A stretch of 40,961 bases of DNA from Microbacteriaceae bacterium (GTDB lineage Bacteria > Actinomycetota > Actinomycetes > Actinomycetales > Microbacteriaceae): assembly GCA_947444785.1 (NCBI GenBank), contig CANFBG010000005.1, positions 1-40,961 of the forward strand, in the 5' to 3' direction. Positions 26,555-36,785 of this stretch are shown piece by piece. The stretch's first letter is position 1. Every line of letters starts with the position of its first letter. The notes under the pieces are model-generated. The model did not search any database. It was not told the origin of the DNA and saw nothing but the letters and a program-made list of their open reading frames with translations. Position numbers and translations under genes: made by a program.

Positions 26555-26863
26555 TTAGAGCTTGATCTCGATGTTGACATCGGCCGGCAGGTCGAGGCGC
26601 ATCAGCGAGTCAACCGCCTTGGGCGTCGGGTCGATGATGTCGATGAGGCGCTTGTGGGTGCGCATCTCGAAGTGCTCGCGGCTGTCCTTGTACTTGTGAG
26701 GTGAACGGATCACGCAGATCACGTTTTTCTCAGTGGGCAACGGCACCGGGCCGACAACGGTTGCACCCGCGCGGGTTACCGTGTCAACAATCTTGCGCGC
26801 CGAGGAATCGATGACCTCGTGGTCATACGACTTCAGTCGGATGCGGATCTTTTGTCCCGCCAT
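26555..26863 (-). CDS. rpsJ: 30S ribosomal protein S10 (uS10/NusE)
   Basis: S10, 102 residues, also the NusE partner of NusB and Nus[47 protein letters not shown] and the [16 protein letters not shown] loop are standard. It is the first gene of the S10-spc superoperon and is preceded by a leader of about 290 nt and its own promoter. Confidence 0.98.
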
Positions 26864-27235
26864 TTGTGACTCGCTCTCTTGTTAGCGTCTTACCTTCCTT
26901 GCGGATGGCATTGGACGCGCTTACGTACGAGGACCTGTGGGCCCTCGTCACCTGTGCACTTCGTGTGTTGCACCACTGTTTTGATATCAACGCCCTTGCG
27001 GACTGCCCCACCGGCACGCCTTTTTCTCGCACGGGTGATCCATGCGAGAAGGATGCTGGTGGTTTTGTTCTGCTGCCCGCGGCACAATCCGAGAGACTGT
27101 GCACTGCCTGACAGTGATTCCAGACCGCAGGGCGGCATGAAAGTGTTGAACTAGATGAGTTTGCCACAGCTTTGGGCATCGTGCAACCCGGGCGTGTCGC
27201 GTTGGGCGTGTCGCTCTCCCCCTGTGTTTACGCGC
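26864..27235 (-). promoter_or_regulatory. rpsJ: S10 operon promoter and long leader
   Basis: On the minus strand TTGCAC (27181-27186) and CAAACT (27158-27163) are separated by 17 bases, a plausible strong promoter, giving a transcript start near 27151. The remaining leader of about 285 nt has no gene I can support. It holds several inverted repeats, including TTCTCGCA/TGCGAGAA (about 27023-27051) and GCACA/TGTGC (about 27082-27103), plus a CACTG/CAGTG pair. About 50 bases separate the promoter from the upstream gene's terminator. Confidence 0.6.
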
Positions 27236-27292: not shown

Positions 27293-30200
27293 CTACTCGG
27301 TGGCGCCGTTCCGGCGTCGGCGGATCCAGAGCCACAGCCCCGTTCCGGCCGCCGTCATGACTCCGCCGACCAGCAGCGGCCCGGCGATCGGGAGGCCCGT
27401 GTTGGGCAATCCCCGCCCACCTCCCCTGAGATATGCCGGGGACACGGCCCCGTTGTGGGTGTTGGTGACGGTACACACCGCCTGGTCATCCAGGATCAGC
27501 GAGACCACCGCACCCGTCGTGAAGCGGGGAGGCTTACCCACATTGATGATCACGCACTCCCACACGCCGTCGTAGTTCGCCGGCCCGGATTCACTCAGCG
27601 TGAAGTCACCGATGGGGACGTCCGCCCCTGTGACCGCCGGGCTTCCGGTCGTGCCCGAGATGGTGGAACCGCCGCCTGCCGGGTTGAACGCCGTCAGGAT
27701 GAAGTCCGTCGCGACCGCGGTGCCGGTTGAGCCGTTCTGCACGATCTTGCGGAGCGTCAGGTTCGGGTCGACAGCCGTGTTCGTGATGCGACAGGAGACA
27801 TCAGCGCCGTCGGGGACGACGATGGTCGCCGAGCCCAGACCTGCATAGATGAAGGATGTCGCACCGGTGCAGGACCAGAGGCCCGGGGTGAACCCCGAGT
27901 CCGTGGGACTCTCGGTCAGCGTGTAGGTACCCGCAAGCACTCGAACCAGGTTCACGCCGCCACCGGATGTCGGGTCGCCGTTGCCGGAGACCGTCGGCTG
28001 GCCTGGAATGACCACCGGCGTCGCCGTCAGAGTGTAGTCCGCGGGCGTCCGGATCAAGCCGTTCTTGTTCAGCTCGACCTTCTTCACCAGCGTCAGGGTC
28101 GAGAGCGACCTGTTCGTGATCGTGCACGTTGCCCGATCATCCAGGGCAAGCACGATGACCGGTCCCGTCGTGCTTCGTTCAGGAACACCCACATGCGTGA
28201 CCACACACGACCACTGGCCCTCGTAGAGCGCCGGCCCGGTCTCGCTCAACGTGTAGGTTCCCACAGCGATATCGGCATTGGTGATCGATGCGTCACCGGT
28301 CTTACCCGTGATCGTGAAGCCTCCCGAATCTTCAGTCGTGGCGGTCAGGTCCCAGTCCCTCGGAACCGCGCTTCCCGTAGTCCCGTTCTCGACCTGCTTG
28401 ACCAGGGTCAGGTTCGGATCCACCGCGGTGTTCGTGATCTCGCACGCCACCGCGTTGCCCGGGGCGACAACGATCGTCGCCGTACCCAGCAGCACCGGAA
28501 TCACCGACACCGCGCCCTCGCACGACCAGGTGCCGGGAATGAACCCGCTGTCGGTCGGCGTCTCGGCCAGCGTGTAGGTTCCCGACAGAATCGGAATCGC
28601 CTTCACACCGCCGTTGTTCGGATCACCGGTACCGGTCAGGGTCGGCTGCCCAGGAATGAGCACCGGCGTGGCCGTGAACGTGTAGTCCGCAGGCGTCCGG
28701 ATCAGACCGCTGTTGTTCAGCACCACGTGCTTCACCAGCGTCAGGGTTGACTGCGCCCGGTTCGTAATCGTGCAGGTCGCCTGATCCTCCAGCACCAGCT
28801 TCACCACCGGACCGGTCGTCGAGCGGATGGGAAGACCCTGATGGAAGATCTGACACGACCATTGGCCCTCATAGAGCGCCGGCCCGGTCTCACTCAGGGT
28901 GTATGTTCCCTCAGCGATATCGGCGTTGGTGATCGAGGCGTCACCGGTCTTACCCGTGATCGTGAACCCTCCGGTATCCGGCGTCGTGGCCGTCAGCTGC
29001 CAATCCCTTGGAACCGCCGAACCCGTCGTACCGTTCTCGACCTGCTTGATCAGCGTCAGGTTCGGATCGATCGCCGTGTTCGTAATCTCACACGACACCT
29101 CAGCGCCGTCGCCGATCACGATCGTCGCCGTGCCCAGGATCACCGGCACCACCGAGATCGCATTCTCACAAGACCACTCTCCCGGCAGGAACCCGGTATT
29201 CGTCGGCGTCTCAGCCAGCGTGTACGTTCCTGCCAGCAGGCGAACATTATTGATTCCGCCCTGTGCCGGATCGCCGGTGCCCGTCAGGGTCGGCTGGCCG
29301 GGAATCAGAACGGGCGTCGCCGTGAACGTGTAGTCCGCAGGCGTCCGGATCAGACCGCTGTTATTCAGCACCACGTGCTTCACCAGCGTCAGACTCGGCT
29401 GCGCGCGGTTCGTGATCGTGCACACCGCCTGATCCTCCAGCACGAGCTTGACCACAGGTCCCGTCGTCGTGCGAGTGGGAATCCCTGTGTGCGTGATGAC
29501 ACAGGACCACTGGCCCTCATAGAGCGCCGGCCCCGACTCGCTCAAGGTGTAGGTACCCTCAGCGATATCGGCATTGGTAATCGAGGTGTCCCCGGTCTTA
29601 CCCGTGATCGTGAACCCTCCGGTATCCGGCGTCGTAGCCGTCAGCGTCCAATCCCTCGGAACCGCGCTGCCCGTCGTACCGTTCTCGACCTGCTTCACGA
29701 GCGTCAGGTTCGGATCCACCGCCGTATTCGTAATCTCACACGACACGTCGTTGCCATTGGCCACCACGATGGTCGCCGTGCCCAGGATGACCGGCACAAC
29801 CGACACCGCACCAGCGCACGACCAGTCACCGGGGATGAACCCGTTATTCGTCGGCACCTCGGCCAGGGTGTAGGTGCCGGAGTGGATCGGCACCATGTTC
29901 ACCCCGCCGATGGAGGTCGGGTCGCCATTTCCAGTCAGCGTCGGCTGACCCGGAATGAGTACCGGCGTCGCCGTGAACGTATAGTCCGCCGGCGTCCGGA
30001 TCTGACCGCTGTTGTTCAGCACGATCTTCTTCGTCAGCGTCAGGGTCGACTGCGACTGGTTGGTGATCGTGCACTTTGCCTGATCCTTCAGCTCCAGCGT
30101 GATGACCGGGCCCGTCGTCGTGCGGGGCGGTGCCGTTTCATTCGAGATCAGACATGACCACTGACCCTCGAAGAGCGGCGGTCCGACCTCGCTCAACGTG

Positions 30201-33200
30201 TACTCGCCCACCGGCACCGGGGCGCTGGTGATGGCCGGCTCGCCCGTCTTGCCCGTGATCGTGTAGTTCTGGAAGGCGGAGTTCACCGCGGTGAGCGTCC
30301 AGTCGGCTACCACCGAGGAACCCGTCGAACCGTTCTCGACGACCTTCTCCAGTGTCAGCTTCGGGTCGACCGCCGTGTTCGTGATGTCACACGAGACCAC
30401 GGCGCCGTTGGCGATGACTATCGTCGCAGCTCCCAGCCCCGCAGGGACGACAACCGTTGCGCCCGAGCACGTCCAGAGCCCGGGCACGAAGCCCGTGTTC
30501 GTGGGATTCTCGGTCAGGGTGTAGGTGCCGGCAAAGACCGGAACCTCGTTGATGCCGCCCACGGAGGTCGGGTCACCGTTGCCCGTGACTACGGGCTGGC
30601 CCGGGATGAGCACCGGCGTTGCGGTGAACGTCCAGTCAGCAGGCGTCTTGGTCTGGCCGCTGTTGTTCAGCTCCACGTGCTTGGTCAGCGTCAGGAGCGA
30701 CTGGGTGTCGGAGTTCGTGAACGTGCAGACAACGTCTGCACCGAGCTCCACTGTCACCTTGGGGTCGTCCTTTGTTGTGGGCAGTGTGGTCTCGCCAGAC
30801 TTGCAAACAAGGCTGTCGTAGACGTAACCGCCGGGGCCGTCGGCCTCAGCCAGGGCGTACAGTGCCGGCAGAACTGCCCGCTGCACTCCGGTGCTGAAGA
30901 CGGTGTTGCCCGCCGAAAGCGTCCAGTCGCTTGGCACCGCGTTGCCGCCGTGGGTGTTGTTCACCTGCTTGATCAGCGTCAAATGCGACAGCTGGTCAAC
31001 ATTCGTGAAGGTACAGACCACGTTCTGGCCCAGCGCAATACTCACATTGGGGTCGCCGATGCTCGTGGGCAACACCGTGTCACCGTCCTTGCAGACGAGG
31101 CTGTCGAAGGTGTAACCGCTGGGGCCGTTCGCCTCCGCGAGTGCGTAGTCACCGATCGATACGTCGGCGGCCACGCCAGTGGTGAACGTCGTGTCGTTTG
31201 CTGTCAGCGTCCACTGCGACGGAAGCGCCAGGCCGCCATGCGTGTTGGACACGCTCTTGATCAGCGTCAGACGCGGCTGCTTGGCGGTGTTCGTGATCGT
31301 GCAGGTTACGTTCTCACCGTTGGCCAGGGTCACACTTGTGCCGTCGATCGGATGCTTCCCACATGTCCACGCCGAAGCGGTATAGCCGGCAGGGCCAGCA
31401 GATTCACTCAGGTCGAAGGCGCCCGCCGGAACCGTCTGGTTCTCGATCAAAGGACTGCCACCGGGACCGGAGAACCCACCCGTTCCGGTCGCGGTGAGCG
31501 TCCAGTCCGAGGCTGTCGCCGTGCCGCCGGTTTGGTTGTTGAGCACAGTCTTGACCAGCGTCAATGTTGCCGGCTCGTCCGTGTTCACGAACGTGCAGAC
31601 CACGTGTGCGCCGAGGGCCACGATCACCGTCGGGTCCGTCGTTGATGTTGGCAGCACCGTGTCGCCATCCTTGCAGACGAGGCTGGTGTTCATGTAGCCG
31701 GCGGGACCGCCCGACTCCGCCAGCGTGTACGTGTCAGTCGGAACATTCATCGACTGGCCCGTGAGGAACGTGTCGCCGTTAGCCGTCAGGGTCCACGATG
31801 TCGGCAACGCACTGCCACCGTGGGAGTTCGTCACGCTCTTCACCAGCGTGAGAGACGCCTGCTGGGCAGTGTTCGTGATGGTGCAGGTCACATTCTCACC
31901 ATTGGCCAGCGTCACATTGCTGCCGAGCATCGGATGCGTCCCACATGTCCACGTCGAAGCGTCGTAGCCCGAAGGACCACCCGACTCACTCAGCGCGAAC
32001 GTGCCCGCCGGAACCGACTGGTTCTCGATATCGGTACTGCCACCAGCACCCGAGAACCCGCCGTTACCGGCCGCCGTCAGCGTCCAGTCGCTCGGCTGCG
32101 CCGTGCCACCGGTGCCGTCATTGACGACATTCTTCACCAGGGTCAGCGTTGCCGGCTGGTCAGAGTTCGTAAACGTACAGACCACATCCTGGCCGAGTCC
32201 GACGACGACATTCGGGTTCGCCTTCGAGGTCCCCCCGATCGGAATGGTGTCCGCAGTGCACGCGAGGGTGTCGTACGTGTAGCCGCTCGGGCCCCCTGAC
32301 TCCAGCAGCTCGTATGACTTCGGCAGGACAGCCGTCTGGGTACCCGACGCAAACGCCGTCCCATTCGCCGTCAGGGTCCAGTTCGACGCCACCGCAGTAC
32401 CGCCATTGTTGTTGTTGACGTGCTTGACCAGCGTCAGGTGAGACTGCCGATCGACGTTAGTGAATGTACACACGACGTTCTGGCCCAGCGCGATAGACAC
32501 CGTGGGGTTGGCGATGTTGGTCGGCAGCACCGTGTCACCGATCTTGCACTCAAGACTCGCGAACGTATAACCGCTGGGGCCGTTGGCCTCGGCCAGCGTG
32601 TAGTTGCCGATCGGCACATAAGAGCCGATCCCCGTTGCGAACTGCGTGTTGTTCGCCGTCAGTTTCCACTCGGACGGCACCGCGGTGCCGCCGTGGGTGT
32701 TCTGCACGGTCTTGACGAGCGTGAGGCTGGCCTTCTGCGCCGTGTTCGTGATCGTGCAGGTCACGTTCTCGCCGTTCAGCAGGGTCACAACGTTGCCCTG
32801 GATCGAGTGACTGCCACAGCTCCAGTTCGAGGCCGTGTAGCCGGGCTTGCCGCCCGACTCGGTCAGGGTGAAGTCACCCGCCGACACCGACTGGTTGGCA
32901 ATCGCGGGGCTGCCGCCGGCACCGGAGAATCCGCCGCCGCCGGCCCGGCTTGCCGCCAGGGTCCAGTCACCGACAACCGCCGTGCCACCCGTGCCGTCGT
33001 TGTCGACGATCTTGACGAGGGTCAGGGTTGCCGGCTGGTCTGTGTTCGTGAATGTGCAGACGACATTCTGTCCCAGCAGAACCTGAACGTTGGGAAGATC
33101 CTTCGTCGTAGGTGTGGGCACCCCATCTGCCAGGCAGACGAGGCTGGTGTAGGTGTAACCCGACGGCCCACCTGACTCGGCCAGCGCGTAGGTCGCGGGA

Positions 33201-35368
33201 AGCACATCCTGCGAGACACCGGTCGTGAACGTCGTGGTGTTGGCCTTCAGAGCCCACGACGATGGCGGCGCTGTGCCTCCGTGGGAATTCACGACGCTCT
33301 TGATCAGTGTCAGCTTCGCCTGCTTCGCCGTATTGGTGATCGTGCACGTGACGTCATCGCCGTTGGCGATGCTGACACTGCCCGCCGTCACCGGATGACC
33401 GGACCCGCAATCCCAGACCGAGGCCACATAGCCCGTCGGTCCGTTGGCCTCGCTGAGGGCATATGTACCGGGTGAAACAGACTGGTTCTTGATCGCGTTG
33501 CTGCCACCCGCTCCGGTGACGGTGCTCGGTCCCGCCGCCGTCAGCGTCCAGTTGGCCGGTACTGCCGTACCACCGGTGGTCCCGTTGGACACAGCCTTGA
33601 CCAGGGTCAGTTTCGCACCGGTCTGACGGTTTGTCACGACGCAGCTGACCTTCTCTGTCGGGGCCACTGTGATGCTGAAACCCGGGCCGCTAGCGGCATT
33701 GGTGAGGTTGGAGCCGCCGGTACAGACTGCGTTCTTGCCGCCGGTCTGCACGATCTGGTAACCGTCCTGCTGGGTTTCGGCCACGGCCACGCTCTGGGCA
33801 ACGACGGGGTCACCGAAGTTGACCGGCCAGTTGACCGCACCCGAGACTCCGTCGGTAACCAAGGTCTTCGGGGATCCGGTGATGCCACTGCCCGAAGCGG
33901 TGAAGCTCCAGCCCGCAGGATGCGTGCTGATCACGTTTCCCTGCGCATCCTGCGTCACTTTCTGCACGGTGAGCGTGCCGCCACAGCTGGCCGACGCGAT
34001 CTCGTTCAGCTTCGTGGCGAGGTCTGTGAAGTTGGAGAGGAAGTAGTCGGTGCCCTCGGTGGGGCCGGAGATCGCCTTCAGGTTGAGGTCGGAGTTCGTG
34101 CTGACACCGATGCCCACGGGAAGGACCATGGTGTGGCCGCCGCCGGGACCGGTGTGCCCCTTCACCTCGTTGGCCGAGAAGATCGAGTTCTCGAGGAAGC
34201 TGACCTGAACGTTCGTGTTGGTGTTGGCCCCACTTGTGTCGTAGGTGGTCGGGTCGCCGTCGGTCATGAAGAGCACCATGTCGTAGGCATCACCCTGTTG
34301 GGCGACGAGATGCAGGGCTGCATCCCAGTTTGTGTAGCCGTTTCCGGCCGTGGGCACGTAGCTGTCGATTGCCGCCTGGGCGTCGGAAATGCCGGAGGAG
34401 TTGATCAGGGAGATAGGTGCCCCGGCACGCTTCTCCGCGGTAGTGCTGAATTTGAAGAGGGAGACGCTGGACGGAGTTCCGCCCAGCCCGGTCGCGCCGA
34501 CGAAGAGCTTGGCTGCGTCCTTGAACTGAGTCATCTCCCCCGAGGAAATCGAGCTGGAGGTATCGAACACCATCGCAATGCTGATCCCACATCGCTCCGG
34601 GAAGGTCGGGTTGTTGGCCACATCGGCCCATTTGACGACATTGCCGCCTGGCGTGCTCTGCGGCGTTACCGCGCTGCTCCCCGGGATCTCGATCGTGCTG
34701 CTCGCGGCGAGGTTGTTGGTGAAGTACCGATAGGGGGTCACCGTCTTCGCGCTGGCGAAGTCGCCGGTGCCCAGGGAGACAACGGGCCCATACCCGGTGG
34801 GCGCCGTCCGCTCGACGATCCAGTACCCGGCGGTGCTGTTTCCGGAGCCGCCTGACAGCGGCGGAACGACGACTGAGCAGTCTCCCGAGCCAGCCGTGGG
34901 AGAACCTGACGTACACGTTGCCGCGGAACTGCCCGAGGGAGCAGACCCCCGCGTACCCGCGTAGACATCGAAGACCGCGCCGTCGAGGGGAGTCACACCC
35001 GTTGCGCCCGTGCGGGTCGCACCCTTGTGGATGTTGATCGTGGCGTTGGTGACGGGCGCCAACGGGGCGAGCAACTGCTGCGGTGTCGGCGTGGGCGCCG
35101 GTGTGTTCGAGTGCTCGTCGTCCGGCGCCTGAGTCGGAGTCGGCGTGGGCGTGGGCGTAGGAGTGGGGGTCGGCGTGGATTCGTTGTGCCCGTTGTTGCC
35201 ATTGTTGGGCTGGGCCTCAGCGGATGGGGCCATGGCAAATCCGCCGGCCATGACTGCAAAGACAAGCGCTGGAATGGTCAACAGCGCTATCCAGGTCTCC
35301 CGCTTGGAGAAGTAGCCGCGCTCGGCGGGGGCATTCTTCTTCAGGGAGGAATCGTTCTTCTTAGGCAC
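27293..35368 (-). CDS. giant LPXTG-anchored adhesin with VWA domain and 21 prealbumin-like repeats
   Basis: Secreted, wall-anchored protein of 2691 residues. Order: basic N-region and hydrophobic signal core (residues 25-45) with likely cleavage after AEA (52); a Pro-Thr stalk (64-97); a SpaA-like domain (106-227, with ERTAPTGYGP); a VWA domain (258-462) with MIDAS D269/S271/S273, T346 and D370 (MTDGD). Then come one module at 464-581, ten at 587-1558 and ten at 1559-2637. Each begins with an LTLxK strand and ends C-x-x-TN. A sortase signal LPNTG (2654-2658), a membrane helix and RRRR close it. The start is GTG, chosen because it precedes the signal peptide; its ribosome site is weak. It likely binds a host, surface or neighbouring-cell ligand. 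No sortase or other pilin gene is nearby. The family is clear, the ligand unknown. Confidence 0.93.
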   Translation of the reverse strand: MPKKNDSSLKKNAPAERGYFSKRETWIALLTIPALVFAVMAGGFAMAPSAEAQPNNGNNGHNESTPTPTPTPTPTPTPTQAPDDEHSNTPAPTPTPQQLLAPLAPVTNATINIHKGATRTGATGVTPLDGAVFDVYAGTRGSAPSGSSAATCTSGSPTAGSGDCSVVVPPLSGGSGNSTAGYWIVERTAPTGYGPVVSLGTGDFASAKTVTPYRYFTNNLAASSTIEIPGSSAVTPQSTPGGNVVKWADVANNPTFPERCGISIAMVFDTSSSISSGEMTQFKDAAKLFVGATGLGGTPSSVSLFKFSTTAEKRAGAPISLINSSGISDAQAAIDSYVPTAGNGYTNWDAALHLVAQQGDAYDMVLFMTDGDPTTYDTSGANTNTNVQVSFLENSIFSANEVKGHTGPGGGHTMVLPVGIGVSTNSDLNLKAISGPTEGTDYFLSNFTDLATKLNEIASASCGGTLTVQKVTQDAQGNVISTHPAGWSFTASGSGITGSPKTLVTDGVSGAVNWPVNFGDPVVAQSVAVAETQQDGYQIVQTGGKNAVCTGGSNLTNAASGPGFSITVAPTEKVSCVVTNRQTGAKLTLVKAVSNGTTGGTAVPANWTLTAAGPSTVTGAGGSNAIKNQSVSPGTYALSEANGPTGYVASVWDCGSGHPVTAGSVSIANGDDVTCTITNTAKQAKLTLIKSVVNSHGGTAPPSSWALKANTTTFTTGVSQDVLPATYALAESGGPSGYTYTSLVCLADGVPTPTTKDLPNVQVLLGQNVVCTFTNTDQPATLTLVKIVDNDGTGGTAVVGDWTLAASRAGGGGFSGAGGSPAIANQSVSAGDFTLTESGGKPGYTASNWSCGSHSIQGNVVTLLNGENVTCTITNTAQKASLTLVKTVQNTHGGTAVPSEWKLTANNTQFATGIGSYVPIGNYTLAEANGPSGYTFASLECKIGDTVLPTNIANPTVSIALGQNVVCTFTNVDRQSHLTLVKHVNNNNGGTAVASNWTLTANGTAFASGTQTAVLPKSYELLESGGPSGYTYDTLACTADTIPIGGTSKANPNVVVGLGQDVVCTFTNSDQPATLTLVKNVVNDGTGGTAQPSDWTLTAAGNGGFSGAGGSTDIENQSVPAGTFALSESGGPSGYDASTWTCGTHPMLGSNVTLANGENVTCTITNTAQQASLTLVKSVTNSHGGSALPTSWTLTANGDTFLTGQSMNVPTDTYTLAESGGPAGYMNTSLVCKDGDTVLPTSTTDPTVIVALGAHVVCTFVNTDEPATLTLVKTVLNNQTGGTATASDWTLTATGTGGFSGPGGSPLIENQTVPAGAFDLSESAGPAGYTASAWTCGKHPIDGTSVTLANGENVTCTITNTAKQPRLTLIKSVSNTHGGLALPSQWTLTANDTTFTTGVAADVSIGDYALAEANGPSGYTFDSLVCKDGDTVLPTSIGDPNVSIALGQNVVCTFTNVDQLSHLTLIKQVNNTHGGNAVPSDWTLSAGNTVFSTGVQRAVLPALYALAEADGPGGYVYDSLVCKSGETTLPTTKDDPKVTVELGADVVCTFTNSDTQSLLTLTKHVELNNSGQTKTPADWTFTATPVLIPGQPVVTGNGDPTSVGGINEVPVFAGTYTLTENPTNTGFVPGLWTCSGATVVVPAGLGAATIVIANGAVVSCDITNTAVDPKLTLEKVVENGSTGSSVVADWTLTAVNSAFQNYTITGKTGEPAITSAPVPVGEYTLSEVGPPLFEGQWSCLISNETAPPRTTTGPVITLELKDQAKCTITNQSQSTLTLTKKIVLNNSGQIRTPADYTFTATPVLIPGQPTLTGNGDPTSIGGVNMVPIHSGTYTLAEVPTNNGFIPGDWSCAGAVSVVPVILGTATIVVANGNDVSCEITNTAVDPNLTLVKQVENGTTGSAVPRDWTLTATTPDTGGFTITGKTGDTSITNADIAEGTYTLSESGPALYEGQWSCVITHTGIPTRTTTGPVVKLVLEDQAVCTITNRAQPSLTLVKHVVLNNSGLIRTPADYTFTATPVLIPGQPTLTGTGDPAQGGINNVRLLAGTYTLAETPTNTGFLPGEWSCENAISVVPVILGTATIVIGDGAEVSCEITNTAIDPNLTLIKQVENGTTGSAVPRDWQLTATTPDTGGFTITGKTGDASITNADIAEGTYTLSETGPALYEGQWSCQIFHQGLPIRSTTGPVVKLVLEDQATCTITNRAQSTLTLVKHVVLNNSGLIRTPADYTFTATPVLIPGQPTLTGTGDPNNGGVKAIPILSGTYTLAETPTDSGFIPGTWSCEGAVSVIPVLLGTATIVVAPGNAVACEITNTAVDPNLTLVKQVENGTTGSAVPRDWDLTATTEDSGGFTITGKTGDASITNADIAVGTYTLSETGPALYEGQWSCVVTHVGVPERSTTGPVIVLALDDRATCTITNRSLSTLTLVKKVELNKNGLIRTPADYTLTATPVVIPGQPTVSGNGDPTSGGGVNLVRVLAGTYTLTESPTDSGFTPGLWSCTGATSFIYAGLGSATIVVPDGADVSCRITNTAVDPNLTLRKIVQNGSTGTAVATDFILTAFNPAGGGSTISGTTGSPAVTGADVPIGDFTLSESGPANYDGVWECVIINVGKPPRFTTGAVVSLILDDQAVCTVTNTHNGAVSPAYLRGGGRGLPNTGLPIAGPLLVGGVMTAAGTGLWLWIRRRRNGATE
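27455..30694 (-). repeat. five tandem 216-217-residue C+D double modules
   Basis: Residues 1559-2638 consist of five two-module units whose first-strand lysines lie at 1563, 1780, 1997, 2213 and 2429 (spacing 216-217). Each unit is a C module (TPADYTFTATPVLIPGQP) followed by a D module (VENGTTGSAVPRDW, ending CTITN). Units 2-4 are nearly identical in protein and DNA (for example 28671-28745 versus 29319-29394), while units 1 and 5 are more diverged. This pattern is what internal duplication by recombination produces. Confidence 0.9.
30695..33610 (-). repeat. ten tandem 96-99-residue A and B modules
   Basis: Residues 587-1558 hold ten modules, first-strand lysines at 591, 690, 786, 886, 982, 1079, 1177, 1273, 1371 and 1467. 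Two subtypes are interleaved. A modules contain GTGG and a GGFSGxGGS/NQSV segment and end CTITNTA. B modules contain HGG and end CTFTNxD. The order is A-B-A-B-B-A-B-A-B-B. The repeats are older and less alike at DNA level than the C+D array. Confidence 0.88.
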
Positions 35369-35591: not shown

Positions 35592-36785
35592 CTACTTGGT
35601 GATCTTCGTGACGGTTCCGGCGCCGACGGTGCGGCCACCCTCACGGATCGCGAAGCCGAGGCCCTCTTCCATGGCGATCGGCTGAATCAGCTCGACGCTG
35701 ATGTCCGTCGTGTCGCCGGGCATGACCATCTCGGTGCCCTCGGGCAGCGTGATGACGCCGGTGACGTCCGTGGTGCGGAAGTAGAACTGCGGGCGGTAGT
35801 TCGTGTAGAACGGGTTGTGACGGCCACCCTCGAGCTTGGAGAGGATGTACGCGGTTCCGTCGAAGCCGGTGTGCGGGGTAACCGAACCGGGCTTGACGAT
35901 GACCTGACCGCGCTCGACGTCCTCGCGCTTGGTGCCACGAAGAAGCAGACCACAGTTCTCGCCGGCCCATGCCTCGTCGAGCTGCTTGTGGAACATCTCG
36001 ATACCAGTGACCGTGGTCTTGACGGTCGGGCGGATGCCGACGATCTCAACCTCGGAGTTGATGGAGAGGGTTCCACGCTCGGCGCGACCCGTAACGACGG
36101 TTCCACGACCGGTGATCGTGAAGACGTCCTCAACGGGCATCAGGAAGGGCTTGTCCTTGTCGCGGATGGGCTCCGGAACGCTCTCGTCGACGGCGTCCAT
36201 GAGGTCGAGGATCGACTGGACCCACTTCTCGTCGCCCTCGAGGGCCTTGAGGCCGGAGACGCGAACGACGGGGGCGTTGTCGCCATCGAAGTTCTGGCTG
36301 GAGAGGAGCTCGCGAACCTCGAGCTCAACGAGCTCAAGGATCTCTTCGTCCTCAACCATGTCGCTCTTGTTCAGGGCGACGAGCAGGTACGGAACGCCGA
36401 CCTGCTTGGCGAGCAGGACGTGCTCACGGGTCTGGGCCATCGGACCGTCGGTCGCTGCAACCACGAGGATTGCACCGTCCATCTGGGCGGCACCGGTGAT
36501 CATGTTCTTGATGTAGTCAGCGTGGCCCGGGGCGTCGACGTGCGCGTAGTGGCGCTTCTCGGTCTCGTACTCGACGTGCGAGATGTTGATCGTGATACCG
36601 CGCTGGCGCTCCTCGGGAGCCGAGTCGATCGACGCGAAGTCGCGCTGAACGTTCGTCTTCGAGGGGAACTTGTCGGCCAAGACCTTGGAGATCGCTGCAG
36701 TCAGCGTGGTCTTTCCGTGGTCAACGTGACCGATAGTTCCGATGTTTACGTGCGGCTTGGTCCGCTCAAACTTGGCCTTGGCCAC
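35592..36785 (-). CDS. tuf: translation elongation factor Tu
   Basis: EF-Tu, 397 residues, delivers aminoacyl-tRNA. The GTPase motifs are all present: GHVDHGKT (G1), [12 protein letters not shown] (G3) and NKSDMVED (G4). Domain 2 ([13 protein letters not shown]) and domain 3 ([24 protein letters not shown]) are complete. The start is GTG at 36783-36785 with GAGGAGG upstream. The 130-base gap after fusA contains a hairpin, so tuf may also have its own promoter. Confidence 0.98.

Follow-up and report, generated by a model that had tools for sequence, protein, structure and literature searches.

The combination of an isopeptide bond and a disulfide within one domain has been described repeatedly among actinobacterial surface proteins. 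Disulfides were presented as a common tool of Actinobacteria, FimP having both bonds (PMC3485203), and SpaD was likewise shown with an isopeptide and a disulfide (PMC4014117); in a giant Mobiluncus adhesin, both bonds were located in one domain by mass spectrometry and crystal structure (PMC10619420). A 2025 survey predicted SpaA_2 to be an isopeptide family with Lys, Glu and Asn, on the example of a predicted model and not of a solved structure, and reported disulfides as prevalent in SpaA_2, SpaA_3 and SpaA_4 and as present in 41.3% of the isopeptide domains of Actinomycetota (PMC12617251). Among the papers listed by a text search for SpaA_2 with isopeptide, no other was about this domain. 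The gene analysed here encodes a large adhesin and lies in a stretch of 40,961 bases (hereafter the window), which is a whole contig of the 2.76 Mb draft genome of a Microbacteriaceae bacterium (263 contigs, 96% complete). The gene product is very probably a wall-anchored protein in which a VWA head is borne by 21 SpaA_2-type modules, each with a Lys-Asn isopeptide and a disulfide, while C260 and C462 form a separate tie.

The nearest likeness is to family SpaA_2 (Pfam PF19403) itself, which is matched by 20 of the modules and for which the Lys, Glu and Asn set and prevalent disulfides are reported (PMC12617251); nothing essential sets the adhesin apart, except that a series of 21 modules here follows a VWA head. 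Domain 47I of the Mobiluncus mulieris giant adhesin (5u6f, 5u5o), an Ig-like domain from an LPxTG protein, also carries both an isopeptide and a disulfide and provided the top rows of the VIA-align comparison, but 51 domains of isopeptide and ester-bond types are described there (PMC10619420), against 21 modules here. In SpaD and SpaA of Corynebacterium diphtheriae and FimP of Actinomyces oris, CnaB domains also contain Lys-Asn bonds together with a disulfide; however, as far as they are described, their disulfides are located elsewhere in the fold, their domains are few and the proteins are sortase-polymerised pilins. The second Cys sits on the last strand, at four residues ahead of the Asn; such a position differs from the solved cases as these are described, and is general to SpaA_2-type modules. 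The adhesin is an ordinary member of a known family, and its pattern of isopeptide and disulfide residues is real but already in print. The initial annotation of the window had considered such a dense combination unusual for Gram-positive surface proteins. This view has to be abandoned, since the combination was the norm in relatives (167 of 181 modules, see below) and has been published for SpaA_2, Actinomycetota, FimP, SpaD and Mobiluncus.

Conservation of the predicted cross-link residues in the stalk

The stalk (residues 465-2639) consists of 21 modules. Pfam SpaA_2 was matched well above its curated cut-off (1147 bits over 20 stretches, cut-off 25), and 20 single places also exceeded this cut-off. 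Module 0 (465-583) is a divergent 21st module outside these 20 matches; profiles SpaA_4 and SpaA_3 matched the modules more weakly than SpaA_2, and a scan against NCBIfam returned 0 families. In an alignment of the 21 modules, the Lys, the Glu, both Cys and the Asn were each conserved in 21 of 21 rows. This is not expected by chance, because only 13 columns were conserved in at least 19 of the 21 rows and the lowest pair identities were about 18-30%. On identity, modules 1, 3, 6 and 8 formed type A, modules 2, 4, 5, 7, 9 and 10 type B, and types C and D alternated in modules 11-20, with module 0 standing apart. Judged by the Lys/Glu/Asn set, found in 21 of 21 cases, the modules are CnaB-like isopeptide domains with predicted covalent bonds.

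The spacing of the five residues was also regular. The first Cys follows the Glu of a Y-x-L-x-E motif and the second always precedes the Asn by four residues, with 20-27 residues between the two Cys and 85-110 between Lys and Asn. The distance from an Asn to the Lys of the next module was 10-11 residues at all 20 joints, so that 91% of the stalk, from the first Lys to the last Asn, falls between a Lys and its own Asn. By sequence position, all 21 Cys pairs lie inside their Lys-Asn loop. The protein has 46 Cys in total, of which 42 are in the modules, two at the edges of the VWA domain and two in an N-terminal domain (C152, C164). The initial annotation had assigned the five-residue set to each of 21 modules and had named C654/C675, C1634/C1660 and C1739/C1766, as well as C260/C462, as examples; our alignment bore out the assignment, and all of the named residues were correct.

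Within the same family, the head region was matched in 21 of 150 genomes, the source genome being among the 21. A family survey with a profile that included the five residues (in the order KECCN) gave this pattern in 67 of 83 relative modules, and the remaining 16 had gaps or other letters. Named genomes were scanned first with the head protein alone, which retrieved no relatives, and then with an alignment of 12 heads, which retrieved 183, of which the best 80 were kept. All 80 look actinobacterial by title and include Leucobacter, Klugiella, Agromyces, Microbacterium, Cellulomonas, Micromonospora and Streptomyces. They were searched with a module profile that was blind at the five key columns, and 240 modules were found in 59 of the 80 loci. 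All five sites were filled in 181, the 59 hits with unfilled key sites being excluded from the main count, and KECCN was present in 167 of these 181. Modules per relative protein numbered at most 15 with this masked profile, which may overlook divergent modules; the 21 of the present adhesin were the longest series met. In a survey of the phylum, matches were obtained in 12 of 246 genomes (26 loci, several of them from one genome). From 22 of these loci, 48 distinct modules were recovered; 12 of them had every key site filled and read KECCN (10) or KEGCN (2), always with two Cys. Modules of loci L062 and L070 have two Cys and the Asn on reading by eye. Two further counts were set aside: a check of the triad by regular expression proved too restrictive (79 of 181 modules satisfied its three parts, 97 failed at the Asn end alone and 5 in other ways), and the alignment of tandem module pairs was restricted to pairs already seen as KECCN, which makes its invariance partly a matter of choice.

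Fourteen of the 181 modules departed from KECCN. Four of them read KDCCN and six have another letter at the first Cys site; these ten look like alignment slips, because the Glu of the Y-x-L-x-E motif in the former and a Cys a few residues away in the latter are found close by when the sequences are read. The remaining four consisted of two NSCCY modules, which have lost Lys, Glu and Asn together but kept both Cys, and of two (KERYN and KEQYN) in which both Cys are lost and the triad is kept. Regarding Cys number, two were present in 178 modules, none in two, and three in one, the extra Cys of which is in a linker. Apart from this linker residue, the Cys were either both present or both absent, as would be expected of an intradomain disulfide. 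According to these patterns, the Lys/Glu/Asn triad is kept or lost as a whole, the Cys pair likewise, and the one is separable from the other, as would be expected of two separate cross-links. An unpaired Cys had been considered for the eight relatives whose first Cys site reads otherwise and was ruled out, as six have a Cys nearby and two have none.

The two NSCCY domains are SpaA_2-like and located near the N-terminus of their proteins (residues 102-199 of the L123 adhesin and 72-165 of that of L126). They seem to represent a single upstream domain shared by related proteins and would be natural isopeptide-free controls.

Structure prediction had been named in the initial annotation as one way of checking the module reading, and it agreed with it. 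Modules 13-14, predicted from 32 tandem pairs, gave a CnaB-like model with a mean predicted local distance difference test (pLDDT) of 94.3 and a predicted template modelling score (pTM) of 0.79. Strand placement was read from the first module of this pair: the first strand (2-11) contains Lys 8 and strand 59-66 contains Glu 65, while the two Cys belong to strands 78-80 and 102-111, the latter being the last strand, which also contains Asn 109. Both Foldseek and VIA-align grouped the model with CnaB pilins and adhesins. The top VIA-align row was 5u6f of the Mobiluncus adhesin, which has disulfide, isopeptide and ester bonds (Z 9.9, root mean square deviation (rmsd) 2.8, 105 aligned); 3gld and 6fwv came next as near ties (Z 9.2 and 8.9, rmsd 5.1 and 3.7, 187 and 168 aligned, respectively).

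Read from the ends of the aligned ranges, the Lys and Asn of the model fall on K36 and N303 of Spy0128 (range 29-306), on K58 and N450 of SpaD (51-453), and on K610 and N715 (2xic, 603-720) or K297 and N715 (2xid, 290-718) of Cpa, while the Lys falls on K633 of Cna (626-810). These are isopeptide residues according to reports on Spy0128 (PMC7900414) and SpaD (PMC4014117) and, for Cpa and Cna, to a table of the 2025 survey (PMC12617251). The two equivalent positions in 5u6f are 113 residues apart, the same distance as between its Lys6842 and Asn6955. Additionally, when 6fwv was aligned with a profile of module pairs, its Asn, Lys and Y-x-x-x-E motifs matched those of the stalk modules. Searches of PDB sequences gave 0 matches with the whole protein at E 0.01 and, with a single module, one match due to chance.

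VWA head and N-terminal domain

The initial annotation had also placed C260 and C462 on either side of the VWA domain, and relatives strengthened this point. Both residues were invariant in 12 aligned heads, and the Cys pair was present in 81 of 81 VWA domains from all 80 loci when searched with a profile blind to both columns. The metal ion-dependent adhesion site (MIDAS) residues D269, S271, S273, T346 and D370 (DxSxS, T, D) were likewise found in 81 of 81 relatives, that of D370 partly by choice since the stretch around it was in a search pattern. The VWA part of a head model was compared with VWA domains and reached a best Z of 20.6. For ANTXR2 (CMG2; 1shu) it gave Z 20.0 and rmsd 2.4 over 171 aligned residues, the aligned range 38-218 of 1shu covering residues 157-361 of the model, that is, 257-461 of the adhesin. 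The VWA domain of ANTXR2 is reported to have a disulfide between C39 and C218 (PMC4773787), and tying one end of a VWA domain to the other is therefore a known design. ANTXR2 shares the fold and the end-to-end disulfide, but it is an animal receptor and no common function is claimed. The best Foldseek matches of the whole head model were the VWA tip adhesins SpaC (Lactobacillus) and RrgA (pneumococcus); however, TM-scores were about 0.2 over the whole chain, and the adhesin differs from both by its long single-chain stalk.

The N-terminal domain has retained its Cys pair, one Cys being present in 12 of 12 aligned heads and the other being nearly invariant. Its putative isopeptide residues have not been retained in the same way: among 11 relatives, the Glu site is occupied by Gln in seven, Glu in three and Leu in one, and across the 12 heads the Lys shares a column in two, is shifted by one column in seven and is absent from three. 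On these residues, it may be a CnaB-like domain whose isopeptide was lost. The proposal of the initial annotation that every domain is doubly locked would consequently apply to the 21 modules, all of which have the required residues, but not to this domain, which kept the Cys without a conserved triad.

Proposed cross-link mechanics and alternative readings

The adhesin would be exported unfolded, and its disulfides would be formed by a DsbA-like protein with CPFC and by VKOR, both of which are encoded in the source genome. By homology, the first-strand Lys and last-strand Asn would join unaided in the folded core with assistance from the Glu of Y-x-L-x-E; the joint presence or absence of the two Cys points to a disulfide in each module, the C260-C462 disulfide would join both ends of the VWA domain, and a sortase would link the protein to the wall. 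The VWA domain is likely to be the binding head, kept far from the wall by the stalk. Given the spacing of the residues, a pull on it would pass from Lys to Asn through each module and bypass the 85-110 residues between them, with the hinges of 10-11 residues remaining between modules. The disulfide would be outside this load path, and shielded from force once the isopeptide has formed, because it is inside the Lys-Asn loop, and it probably adds no tensile strength to the stalk. The double locking, expected in the initial annotation to make the stalk extremely stable, seems right as chemistry but is doubtful as a gain in tensile strength. A likelier task of the disulfide would be to fix the last strand for folding, isopeptide formation and protease resistance. 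A more specific version, which we put forward only tentatively and hold to be rather unlikely, is that the SpaA_2 disulfide acts as an order-setting staple: by fixing the last strand at a point four residues ahead of the reactive Asn, it would impose oxidative folding first and the isopeptide after, and curing of the stalk would depend on the DsbA-like protein and VKOR. The separate losses of triad and Cys pair are an evolutionary hint that the cross-links of SpaA_2 are distinct, in a family for which we found no solved structure, and a stalk of 21 modules and four types is a good source of domains for asking whether a disulfide inside an isopeptide loop serves folding or strength.

Several observations weigh against the doubly cross-linked adhesin proposed here. 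The equivalences with known isopeptide residues were an indirect reading, which assumes no gap in the last few residues of each range; for 7w7i they were off by two, the range ends giving 54 where the survey table has Lys 52 (PMC12617251), and several superpositions span two domains with a large rmsd (15.5 for SpaD and 11.7 for 2xid, against 2.9 for single-domain 2xic). PDB sequence searches with the whole protein, a single module and the pair profile retrieved no solved SpaA_2 structure. Separable losses were few, two of each kind, and related proteins were counted apart although several of the 80 loci are close relatives. The head model was weaker than that of the stalk pair (pLDDT 74.0, pTM 0.57), being lowest in module 1. 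Finally, class E sortases are thought to prefer LAxTG, and the adhesin ends in LPNTG.

Alternative readings can be weighed on the same evidence. Formation of the isopeptides only, with Cys that stay reduced or bind a metal or partner proteins, would be compatible with the fact that CnaB isopeptides form unaided and with a SpaA disulfide reported as just partly formed in the crystal (PMC4014117). We consider it improbable in view of the absence of any single-Cys module among the 181 modules of relatives, of the VKOR and CPFC protein of the source genome and of the prevalence of disulfides stated for SpaA_2 models (PMC12617251). The reverse case, in which many of the CnaB-like modules would lack the isopeptide and the disulfide would be the working lock, finds some support in the N-terminal domain, which kept its Cys and not its triad across 12 heads, and in the low confidence with which a substantial fraction of SpaA_2 bonds was predicted, attributed by the authors to lacking templates (PMC12617251). 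With Lys, Glu and Asn present in 21 of 21 modules, and lost in relatives only as a set (2 of 181), it appears very unlikely.

Just as little probability is given to a pilus-tip reading, in which a class C sortase would polymerise the protein onto a shaft and it would not be a single-chain adhesin. SpaC and RrgA, the best matches of the head model, are indeed tip pilins, but the two sortase-family matches of the genome are one of class E and one that reaches no class cut-off over the 80 residues scanned and whose frame has no Cys, and none of ten scanned neighbours is a pilin; a gene may nonetheless be missing, because the genome is 96% complete in 263 contigs. A single-chain adhesin, doubly cross-linked in each of its modules, is preferred over these alternatives.

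Gene layout and genome context

An export-type N-terminus, a tandem stalk and an LPxTG motif with a hydrophobic tail can be read from the sequence, and the gene product is predicted to be a sortase-anchored fibrillar adhesin of an actinobacterium of the Microbacteriaceae (Table 1).

Table 1. Features of the adhesin gene, with positions in the window
Feature	Positions	Strand	Remarks
Whole adhesin gene	27293..35368	(-)	2691 residues, GTG start
Putative N-terminal export signal region, residues 1-52	35213..35368	(-)	Read off the sequence; signal type presumed
Pro/Thr-rich low-complexity region, residues 53-104	35057..35212	(-)	Contains a short DNA repeat (35133-35176)
N-terminal domain with C152/C164	34679..35056	(-)	Boundaries approximate
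VWA domain, C260 to C462	33983..34591	(-)	Pfam VWA; MIDAS D269, S271, S273, T346, D370
Module 0, residues 465-583	33620..33976	(-)	K470, E531, C549, C576, N580; module alignment
Modules 1-10, types A and B	30704..33616	(-)	Order A B A B B A B A B B; all K-E-C-C-N; Pfam and alignment
Modules 11-20, types C and D alternating	27452..30703	(-)	Five pairs; all K-E-C-C-N; Pfam and alignment
Sorting signal LPNTG (residues 2654-2658), hydrophobic stretch, Arg-rich tail	27296..27409	(-)	Sequence

Two sortase-family matches were found in the source genome. One was of class E, over the cut-off and with a TLTSC site, whereas the other, of which 80 residues were scanned, was below every class cut-off. The frame of the latter (417 residues, L037:861-2114, minus strand) has no Cys at all, and hence no sortase catalytic Cys.

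The adhesin gene is located between tuf (35592-36785) and rpsJ (26555-26863), inside the str-S10 ribosomal block. Comparison of ten neighbouring genes with Pfam identified eight elongation-factor or ribosomal-protein genes and one DUF6121 gene just below the cut-off; one had no match. The run of minus-strand genes had first looked phage-like, and a prophage origin of the window was ruled out by these neighbours, most of which are elongation-factor or ribosomal genes. Of ten proteins compared with PHROGs, seven had no match and three matched families of unknown function or with enzyme names; no structural phage family was among these matches. A frame of 118 residues (26823-27179) between the adhesin gene and rpsJ is without a Pfam match and may not be a gene.

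In 3 of the 100 loci searched, tuf, rpsJ or rplC was present. The order tuf-adhesin-rpsJ recurred in locus L043, from another genus of the family, and Actinomyces sp. UW_MP_ACT2_2 has one adhesin locus with fusA and tuf (L140) and another with rpsJ and rplC (L136).
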